Positions 17,465 through 44,889 of a stretch of DNA of 64,000 nucleotides are shown here, one piece after another (the stretch's first letter is position 1; the number at the start of each line of letters is the position of its first letter). The stretch comes from an uncultured Bacteroidales bacterium. Its GTDB lineage: Bacteria > Bacteroidota > Bacteroidia > Bacteroidales > Muribaculaceae. The notes below the pieces were generated by a model that was not told the DNA's origin, did not search any database, and saw only the letters and a program-made list of their open reading frames with translations. A program made the position numbers and the translations under genes. The stretch covers positions 1 to 64,000 of the forward strand of contig CACZNH010000005.1 of the NCBI GenBank assembly GCA_902782465.1, read 5' to 3'.

Positions 17465-17538
17465 CGCTTCTTCTTGGACTTGAACCAAGGACCCCCTGAT
17501 TAACAGTCAGATGCTCTAACCAACTGAGCTAAAGAAGC
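17465..17538 (-). tRNA. tRNA-Asn (anticodon GTT), promoter-distal copy
   Basis: On the minus strand GCTTCTT pairs with AAGAAGC, D arm GCTC/GAGC, anticodon loop CTGTTAA gives GTT, and the T arm is CTTGG-TTCAAGT-CCAAG. Same 74-base sequence as the copy at 17570-17643. Confidence 0.95.
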
Positions 17539-17569
17539 AATCCACTCTTAAATATCTATCATTATGAAG

Positions 17570-17643
17570 CGCTTCTTCTTGGACTTGAACCAAGGACCCC
17601 CTGATTAACAGTCAGATGCTCTAACCAACTGAGCTAAAGAAGC
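17570..17643 (-). tRNA. tRNA-Asn (anticodon GTT), promoter-proximal copy
   Basis: Identical 74-base tRNA to the one at 17465-17538, separated from it by 31 bases. Both form one transcription unit from the promoter at 17686-17716. Confidence 0.95.
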
Positions 17644-43315: not shown

Positions 43316-44671
43316 CTATTCCGGTACGCTCTGAAGGGTCTGGGCGATATCGACATCCGATACTTGATAGTTCATCAAGTCACCATTCAGGTATTGGTCA
43401 TAGGCGCTCATGTCGATGAGGCCGTGCCCCGAGAGATTGAACAGAATCACCTTGGCTTCACCCGTCTGTTTGCACTTCTTAGCCTCACGGATGGCGGCAG
43501 CAATGGCATGGCCGGACTCTGGTGCCGGAATGATACCCTCGGTGCGGGCAAAGAGCATGCTGGCATCAAAGGACTCGAGCTGCGGGATATCCACACCGTG
43601 CATCAACCCGTCCTTCAGCAACTGGGAGATAATCATGCCCGCTCCGTGATAACGCAAGCCGCCGGCATGGATGTTGGCGGGCTTAAAACTGTGGCCCAGG
43701 GTGAACATCGGCAACAGGGGAGTGTAGCCTGCCTCATCACCGAAGTCATAACGGAATTCTCCGCGTGTGAGTTTCGGACAACTCTCGGGCTCGGCAGCAA
43801 TGAACTCAGTATGCTTGCCGTCCTTCAGGTTGTGGCGCATAAAGGGGAACGCTATGCCACCAAAGTTTGACCCGCCACCAAAACAGGCAATCACCATGTC
43901 AGGATACTCTCCGGCCATCGCCATCTGCTTCTCGGCTTCAAGGCCGATAATGGTCTGATGCAGGCCCACATGGTTGAGTACCGAACCCAGGGTATATTTG
44001 CATCCCGGGGTCATCGTGGCCAACTCCACAGCCTCGGAGATGGCGGTTCCCAACGAACCCGGATGATGCGGGTCGCGCGTGATGATATCCTTGCCCGCAC
44101 GGGTCGACATCGACGGCGACCCCGTCACGGCGGCACCGAATGTGCGCATGATTGAAGAGCGATAGGGTTTCTGCTGCATCGATATCTTCACCTGATAAAC
44201 GGCTGCTTCCAGACCGAATACCGAGGCGGCATAGGCCAAAGCGGCGCCCCATTGACCCGCACCGGTCTCGGTGGTGACGTTGGTCGTACCTTCTTGCTTG
44301 GCATAATAGCACTGGGCCAATGCCGAGTTGATTTTGTGGGAACCCAGCGGATTCACCGACTCGTTTTTGAAATAAATGTGGGCTGGCGTCTGCAATGCCT
44401 CCTCCAGAGCATAGGCGCGCACCAGGGGCGTGCTCCGGTAGGCTTTATACTTGTCCATCACCTCGTCGGGGATGGGGATGAAATCATGTTCTGTGTCGAG
44501 TTCCTGAACACAGCACTCCCGTGGGAAAATGTGTGCTAAATCATCAACTCCCAGGGGCTGCCTGGTGGCAGGATGGATGGGAGGCATGGGTTTGGTAGGC
44601 ATATCGGCCTGAATATTGTACCATGCTGTAGGCAACTCGTTCTCTTGAAGAATAAAGCGTTTCTGTTTCAT
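43316..44671 (-). CDS. trpB: Tryptophan synthase beta subunit (TrpB2-like)
   Basis: The 451-residue PLP enzyme joins indole and serine to tryptophan. Seen are the long N-terminus with PTAWYNIQAD, RSTPLVRAYALEE, the PLP lysine in NPLGSHKINSA (about 113), the catalytic-Glu loop TTETGAGQWG (about 133), the phosphate loop ACFGGGSNFGG (about 257) and SGHGLIDM near the end. Length and the N-terminal extension are those of the TrpB2 type that can work without TrpA. No other trp gene is adjacent. The 160-base 5' region carries a Trp-rich leader peptide and hairpin. Confidence 0.93.
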   Translation of the reverse strand: MKQKRFILQENELPTAWYNIQADMPTKPMPPIHPATRQPLGVDDLAHIFPRECCVQELDTEHDFIPIPDEVMDKYKAYRSTPLVRAYALEEALQTPAHIYFKNESVNPLGSHKINSALAQCYYAKQEGTTNVTTETGAGQWGAALAYAASVFGLEAAVYQVKISMQQKPYRSSIMRTFGAAVTGSPSMSTRAGKDIITRDPHHPGSLGTAISEAVELATMTPGCKYTLGSVLNHVGLHQTIIGLEAEKQMAMAGEYPDMVIACFGGGSNFGGIAFPFMRHNLKDGKHTEFIAAEPESCPKLTRGEFRYDFGDEAGYTPLLPMFTLGHSFKPANIHAGGLRYHGAGMIISQLLKDGLMHGVDIPQLESFDASMLFARTEGIIPAPESGHAIAAAIREAKKCKQTGEAKVILFNLSGHGLIDMSAYDQYLNGDLMNYQVSDVDIAQTLQSVPE

Positions 44672-44699
44672 TTTGGTTATGTATTAATATTAATAATGT

Positions 44700-44733
44700 T
44701 TAAAGGTCTGTCGCGAGTACGACAGACCTTTAA
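44700..44733 (-). promoter_or_regulatory. Strong hairpin in the trpB leader, probable attenuator
   Basis: A perfect 14-bp stem (arms 44700-44713 and 44720-44733, core AAAGGTCTGTCG) with a 6-base loop lies between the leader peptide stop and the trpB start, 29 bases before the ATG. The RNA after the stem is AU-rich but lacks a continuous U run. Between leader peptide and hairpin, CTCA/TGAG and GCGC/GCGC segments could form the alternative stem overlapping the leader stop. Confidence 0.7.
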
Positions 44734-44774
44734 TGTGATATTGCAATCTCTGTGATTCCAAATGGTCAAGCGCC

Positions 44775-44831
44775 TCACGACTTTTTAAATCTTGAGTTGC
44801 GCCACCACCAGAATTTGGAAACCATTGTCAT
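44775..44831 (-). CDS. trpL: trpB leader peptide with three tandem Trp codons
   Basis: A short frame of 18 codons, MTMVSKFWWWRNSRFKKS, begins at 44831 (second ATG at 44825), with GAGGA just upstream as a ribosome binding site and TGA at 44777-44775. Three consecutive TGG codons at 44810-44802 are a strong sign of Trp-sensing ribosome-mediated attenuation. It lies between a good promoter and the hairpin before trpB. Too short to be judged by homology; the evidence is its composition and position. Confidence 0.8.
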   Translation of the reverse strand: MTMVSKFWWWRNSRFKKS

Positions 44832-44857
44832 AATTCCTCATATTTATTTTGTTGCGG

Positions 44858-44889
44858 CAAATATATAACCATTTTTGCATTGCCACCAA
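44858..44889 (-). promoter_or_regulatory. Promoter of the trpL-trpB unit
   Basis: On the minus strand TTG (44889-44887), 21 bases, TATATTTG (44865-44858). Transcription should start about 20 bases before the leader ATG. Confidence 0.75.

Follow-up and report, generated by a model that had tools for sequence, protein, structure and literature searches.

A Bacteroid-trp-like tryptophan leader as a probable attenuator of a stand-alone trpB2 gene in a Bacteroidales bacterium

Leader RNAs with tandem tryptophan codons are already known in the Bacteroidota. They are catalogued in Rfam as RF01692, the 'Bacteroidete tryptophan peptide leader RNA' or Bacteroid-trp, for ordinary tryptophan operons. Table 1 of PMC2864571 gives the family one row, the main text of that paper does not contain the word 'tryptophan', and in the openly licensed literature we found almost nothing in print about it. 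A first-pass annotation of the DNA studied here had called such a leader at a lone TrpB2-type gene in a Bacteroidales genome unusual; that the kind as such is unusual there is not supported, as the family was already catalogued and such leaders recur across the order. On the side of the enzyme, TrpB of the gut bacterium Bifidobacterium uses exogenous indole (PMC11085991), and the same paper cites an archaeon whose TrpB does not pair with TrpA. Indole from gut bacteria acts on hosts and on microbial neighbours (PMC11085991), and an indole sink under tryptophan control in Bacteroidales would therefore influence how much indole is present. A search of the openly licensed literature, main texts only, yielded no account of a tryptophan leader ahead of trpB2, which is weak evidence of absence.

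Here we describe a leader that lies ahead of a lone trpB2 gene in a stretch of 64,000 nucleotides (the window) from an uncultured Bacteroidales bacterium. Its elements are collected in Table 1.

Table 1. Elements of the trpB2 leader and its gene in the window, in the direction of transcription.
Feature	Position	Strand	Basis or remark
-33 element, TTG	44887..44889	minus	direct reading, in the window only; 21 nt ahead of the -7 box
-7 box, TATATTTG (TAnnTTTG)	44858..44865	minus	direct reading
Leader peptide frame, 18 codons, MTMVSKFWWWRNSRFKKS and stop	44775..44831	minus	ATG 44831, TGA 44775
Three consecutive Trp codons, TGG	44802..44810	minus	invariant in 27 of 27 aligned leaders
Trp-codon hairpin (regions 1:2), UGGU..GCGC..CUCA with UGAG..GCGC..ACCA	44763..44810	minus	fold and covariation
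Candidate antiterminator pairing, GACC 44767-44764 with GGUC 44728-44725	44725..44767	minus	inferred
Terminator-like hairpin, 15 pairs (one G-U), 4-nt loop	44700..44733	minus	predicted fold and covariation
trpB2 (TrpB-like PLP enzyme)	43316..44671	minus	TIGR01415, NF009057

The promoter that had been proposed upstream of trpB, TTG and TATATTTG at a distance of 21 nt, can be read on the minus strand, and the TAnnTTTG box recurs in all 25 leaders examined, the window's among them. Together the two elements make up a Bacteroidota-type promoter. A scan for E. coli-type promoters had no minus-strand match, which would be in keeping with a promoter of this kind. The 18-codon frame with its three TGG codons and a ribosome binding site likewise stood up to inspection: GAGG sits 4 nt ahead of the leader ATG, and frame and codons are conserved. 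The occurrence of TGGTGGTGG is unremarkable when considered alone (0.67 expected by chance in the window, one observed); the case that the element exceeds chance is made by its conservation (28 of 29 genomes), fold and covariation.

Two hairpins dominate the predicted structure of the leader, whose 151 nt fold with a z-score of -6.2 (none of 200 shuffles as good). In the Trp-codon hairpin, CTCA (44796-44793) pairs with TGAG (44777-44774) and GCGC (44802-44799) with GCGC (44773-44770). The first-pass annotation had assigned these segments to an alternative stem; their pairing holds, but the stem is no separate structure, being the Trp-codon hairpin itself. The hairpin that had been noted ahead of trpB is also present, with an energy of -22.7 kcal/mol (z -8.6; matched by 0 of 200 shuffles) and a gap of 28 nt to the trpB2 ATG (44671). 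It does lack a long U run, as had been remarked: the only run at its 3' end, UUU, lies within the predicted stem (CCUUUAA) and is followed by A/U-rich sequence, so that the usual U tail is missing, and a scan for T-tail terminators between 44600 and 45100 gave no match. A search of the window genome for the terminator letters, with up to 2 mismatches allowed, found no second copy.

The leader was followed through 101 genomes of the window's genus, in which TrpB2 was counted at E<=1e-100. It is present in 72 of them: 29 genomes of clade A, defined by at least 90% identity to the window TrpB2 (measured on a portion of the protein for G016 and G065), 38 of clade B (66-73% identity) and 5 at about 52% identity. 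A leader with all three TGG codons is kept in 28 of the 29 clade-A genomes, so loss of the frame and its Trp codons among close relatives is not general. In 26 genomes it lies directly upstream of trpB2; in the other two, G102 and G019, it stands at a contig end, adjoining the same neighbour gene (a HerA-like ATPase), and the assembly breaks before trpB2. A match to R1, a covariance model built from trpB2 leaders, is found in all 29 clade-A genomes, either ahead of trpB2 or at a contig end next to that neighbour gene; one of these matches is partial. The exception with regard to the Trp codons is G101 (L044, L212), where the leader frame and the Trp-codon hairpin are gone and the promoter and the terminator hairpin are still there; this is either a real deletion or an assembly error. 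The leader stop is shifted in two relatives, coming two codons early in L045 and four later in L053. Genes on both sides of trpB2 are conserved within clade A, and none of these neighbours was found beside the clade-B copies in the locus DNA covered.

Mean identity among 11 clade-A leaders is 77%, with a lowest value of 65%. An alignment of 27 leaders, 23 from clade A and 4 from Prevotella, was used to assess covariation, and 97.9% of its stem cells pair. Five pairs have changed on both sides, a count reached by 2 of 500 shuffles; four of these lie in the terminator-like hairpin and one in the Trp-codon hairpin (A-U to G-C, in L053). Compensated cells number 13 against 3.7 in shuffles, none of 500 reaching 13. 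The compensatory stem changes sought among relatives are thus present.

Several clade-A loci show peculiarities of their own. In G102 (L214, at the end of C3, and the start of L059) the contigs break between leader and trpB2 at inverted ends, TGTCCACTAAAAA.. and ..TTTTTAGTGGACA, which look like those of an insertion sequence. The leader of G019 (L210/L215, at the end of C6) has three Trp codons but a wholly different terminator-like hairpin, GAGGGGTGTG..CTCACCCTC. In G016 (L014, C101) trpB2 was matched in two pieces with an internal TGA, and the leader is intact.

Among Rfam models, RF01692 is the closest to the window leader, which scores 32.5 bits and falls below the gathering score of 49 bits. 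At E<=0.01 the model matched 6 of the 101 genus genomes (39.1 to 42.6 bits, none above the cut-off). Across the order it matched 37 of 393 genomes at E<=0.001, 21 of them above the cut-off, in a search with stricter filters that may lose weak matches. Thirty of these 37 hits were fetched, including all 21 above the cut-off; TrpB1 lies downstream of 26, and four (L164, L169, L176, L177) have no TrpB match within the DNA covered. The window leader therefore differs from most RF01692 members examined in preceding trpB2 and not trpB1, a position that is seen in those members and is no part of Rfam's definition. The window genome gave one more RF01692 hit (C15, 33.1 bits); no frame with two Trp codons accompanies it, and it was rejected as chance.

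The relationship was also examined in the reverse direction. Run on 29 RF01692 leaders, R1 found every one of them (E 5e-26 to 9e-8), a set that includes 20 of the 21 above-cut-off leaders and omits L164, which is cut by a contig end. The palindromic terminator alone reaches up to 41.3 bits under R1 on the wrong strand, and 4 of the 29 scores (35.9-41.6 bits) are no or hardly higher. For this reason a second model, R2, was restricted to clade-A leaders and stripped of the terminator. Its test set comprised 31 trpB1-type leaders, namely the 29 together with G041 and G074, which are R1 hits before trpB1 in the window's genus. At E<=1, R2 recovers 15 of the 31, all at the leader and at no other place in those loci, with 6 under 0.01; the best matches are L156 (1.7e-7) and G041 (3e-4). 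The 16 that it misses include G074. Over the 72 trpB2 loci R2 finds exactly the four Prevotella leaders (4 of 4) and nothing else. By these sequence comparisons the window leader is homologous to Bacteroid-trp, yet outside the family by Rfam's own threshold.

Leaders of this type are distributed unevenly over trpB2 genes. At 10 clade-B loci, inspected over 230-330 nt ahead of the gene, no leader was seen, a count that excludes an eleventh locus with 75 nt only. Over the 101 genomes, R1 matched clade B only in G010 and G044, at 27-29 bits and on contigs other than that of trpB2. A Trp-rich frame of 11 codons with a TTG start at about -120 in the clade-B locus L060 lies upstream of the apparent promoter, has no R1 match and was put down to chance. 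Other trpB2 leaders in the order (L100-L106, L115, L126, L130, L132, L135, L136, L140) score 15 to 37 bits under R1 where they match. We do not claim a common origin for them, since this level can be reached by the palindromic terminator on the wrong strand and R2 found none of them. One further locus, L121, has an R1 match at E 0.0024, was not picked up by the W-run screen and is outside the tree described below. Separately, L041:4218-4321 gave weak matches to several animal microRNA models (MIR9486 at 42 bits, cut-off 100) and is probably an inverted repeat.

The gene behind the window leader encodes a TrpB2-type protein, with 583.1 bits against TIGR01415 (cut-off 518.85), 680.6 bits against NF009057 (cut-off 366) and 145.8 bits against the TrpB1 model TIGR00263 trpB, under its cut-off of 392.45. 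The first-pass description of a Trp-codon leader with a terminator-like hairpin before a gene of this type is therefore supported. PF00291 has just one further match in the window genome, a threonine synthase. Neither trpA nor trpC has a match there, in a search that covered these two genes of the pathway; because the assembly is 94.8% complete, their absence is likely, not certain. The bacterium is probably unable to make tryptophan de novo. Within the genus, trpA and trpC each occur in 5 of 101 genomes, the same five. One of these, G074, has an apparent full trpBEGDCFA order, in which the names besides trpB, trpC and trpA were assigned from sequence, and a weak R1 leader (37 bits) before trpB1. 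As trpB2 stands alone in an assembly with no detectable trpA or trpC, the leader probably controls indole salvage. A general tie between leader and trpA absence was considered and rejected: among named relatives and the window, many of them metagenome assemblies, 13 of 18 leader-bearing and 9 of 25 leaderless genomes have no trpA match (Fisher p 0.03), but independent tree pairs give a median p of 1. Elsewhere in the window, at 17465-17643 on the minus strand, two equal-scoring tRNA genes lie side by side.

It is unlikely, in our judgement, that TrpB2 serves something other than indole salvage here. Such a role would be compatible with family models that say only 'TrpB-like', TIGR01415 being a hypothetical equivalog, but a Trp-codon leader implies a tie to tryptophan supply. 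Furthermore, the motifs GSHKxN, with the PLP lysine, and GGGSN are invariant across 12 TrpB2 sequences. Tryptophanase-like genes (PF01212, at least 270 bits), whose products would make indole, occur in 64 of the 101 genus genomes and in 21 of the 29 of clade A, with pieces in 5 further clade-A genomes; the window assembly (G000) has none, its best PF01212 match reaching 85 bits. For two of the tryptophanase-like proteins, compared over 376-residue stretches, tryptophanase models match best; one protein exceeds the strictest cut-off and the other narrowly misses it.

Taken as a whole, the element is very probably a ribosome-controlled transcription attenuator, homologous to Bacteroid-trp, that regulates a stand-alone TrpB2 converting indole and serine to tryptophan. 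To judge from the sequence, its conserved frame with tandem Trp codons is as in ribosome-mediated trp attenuators. With ample charged tRNA-Trp, the ribosome would pass the three UGG codons and reach the stop, the terminator hairpin would form, and RNA polymerase would halt ahead of trpB2. When tryptophan is scarce, the ribosome would stall on the UGG codons and cover the 5' half of the Trp-codon hairpin; the freed 3' half would then interfere with the terminator, and trpB2 would be transcribed. We infer the steps of stalling, termination and antiterminator pairing in this scheme, as well as indole as the substrate.

The antiterminator in particular stands as a candidate. GACC and GGUC pair in 96.3% of cells (alignment A3), and their covariation score is reached by 8 of 500 shuffles, with two compensated cells only, a number reached by 75 of 500. 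The energies of the pairing are not consistently above those of shuffled or swapped controls. Against shuffled sequence the mean z in the clade is +0.6, with 0 of 23 leaders at p<0.05, and other groups give 0 of 4, 2 of 29 and 3 of 18. Own versus swapped terminator arms yielded p values of 0.14, 0.07 and 0.10 in three groups. A narrower repeat on 55 of 56 leaders, with L169 dropped for want of the motif and 18 other trpB2 leaders left out, yielded 0.14, 0.12 and, pooled, 0.039, or 0.29 with one leader per distinct arm.

How the second hairpin acts admits of other readings. Termination by Rho or another factor, with the position of the ribosome still deciding, would suit a window hairpin that has no U tail; we regard it as quite unlikely, as the strong stem, its fixed size and place and the T-rich ends of homologues fit intrinsic termination. 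Over the last 4 stem bases and the 6 bases after, T content is 6 to 9 of 10 in 26 of 29 RF01692 leaders, 5 to 7 in the clade and 5 in the window. The leader could also act on trpB2 translation or mRNA stability, the second hairpin then being no terminator, and the missing U tail and the null terminator scan agree with this, as does a minimum-energy fold of 44672-44865 in which an ACCA immediately ahead of the trpB2 start is paired to four bases from the run of Trp codons. That pairing, however, is missing from the centroid fold, and relatives such as L004, L007 and L008 have not retained the ACCA. No other contact with the trpB2 start region is predicted, and for these reasons control of translation is less likely than transcription termination. 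The terminator-like hairpin itself stops 28 nt short of the ATG, and the homologues' hairpin ends are richer in T; we rate this alternative as very unlikely. That the leader has lost its regulatory role and persists as a remnant transmitted with trpB2, as the missing leader region in one of 29 clade-A genomes (G101), the insertion-sequence-like end between leader and gene in G102 and a U tail poorer than that of the relatives might suggest, is highly improbable against compensated stem pairs and a WWW run and frame kept in 28 of 29 genomes though the leaders differ elsewhere. Under transcription attenuation, the preferred reading, TrpB2 is predicted to be made when tryptophan runs short, and a leader family catalogued from the Bacteroidota would thereby be linked with what is probably salvage of indole by tryptophan auxotrophs.

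To trace the history of the gene, a TrpB2 tree of 70 rows was computed by a quick method, with 8 of the 29 clade-A and 8 of the 38 clade-B sequences. Clade A is embedded in a set of rows titled, for the most part, Prevotella or Prevotellaceae and groups with Prevotella L124, which also carries the leader (branch value 98, asterisked). Clade B groups with two rows titled Muribaculaceae (97, asterisked); its row L016 lies very near the Muribaculaceae row L116, so that the window's genus probably belongs to Muribaculaceae. Holding the genus as one clade was rejected (AU p 0.0014) under a constraint that kept it with the two Muribaculaceae rows, included after inspection of the tree. These relationships suggest that the trpB2 of clade A probably came from a donor resembling Prevotella, with an ancient duplication followed by loss standing as an alternative origin. 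Gene and switch probably arrived together by horizontal transfer, since trpB2 is Prevotella-like while a larger number of genus genomes (38 of 101) have a different version, which lacked a leader at all 10 loci inspected. The R2 scores fit such a joint transfer, with 66 bits for the trpB2 leader of L124 against 31 bits for a trpB1 leader of the window's genus. Mean identity to the 11 clade-A leaders separates them less (L124 70%; L156, before trpB1 in another family, 68%; G041 63%). About 10 changes in leader presence, as scored, fall on the tree, which points to repeated gain and loss of such leaders.

Two aspects of the locus look new. One is an RF01692-type leader before a lone trpB2, as the 26 fetched RF01692 leaders with a downstream TrpB match outside the clade all precede trpB1; the other is the probable joint horizontal arrival of the leader and a Prevotella-like trpB2. 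More tentatively, a stand-alone TrpB2 may have come under an attenuator of the trp operon family, and the two may have spread from one bacterial family to another as a single portable cassette, regulating itself, for indole-to-tryptophan salvage. In auxotrophs that carry tryptophanase, the switch might then stop a futile cycle, with indole recaptured only at tryptophan shortage.

The proteobacterial trp operon attenuator shares with the window leader the tandem Trp codons in a short frame, the hairpin that contains them and the terminator downstream; in the window, by contrast, the target is one probable salvage gene and the 2:3 antiterminator is only a candidate. Indole salvage in Bifidobacterium resembles what is predicted here in that TrpB is an indole-using enzyme of a gut bacterium, but the Bifidobacterium TrpB is fused to TrpC, and the word stem 'attenuat' is absent from the main text of the paper (PMC11085991). 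Compared with Bacteroid-trp, the window leader scores 32.5 against the 49 bits required, precedes a lone trpB2 and not trpB1, has a poorer U tail and belongs to an assembly with no detectable trpA or trpC. Both nevertheless occur in Bacteroidota and follow the same order of frame, Trp hairpin and terminator, with a leader peptide bearing WW or WWW, in several cases similar end residues (LKKS, LKRS), and terminator hairpin letters that are much alike.
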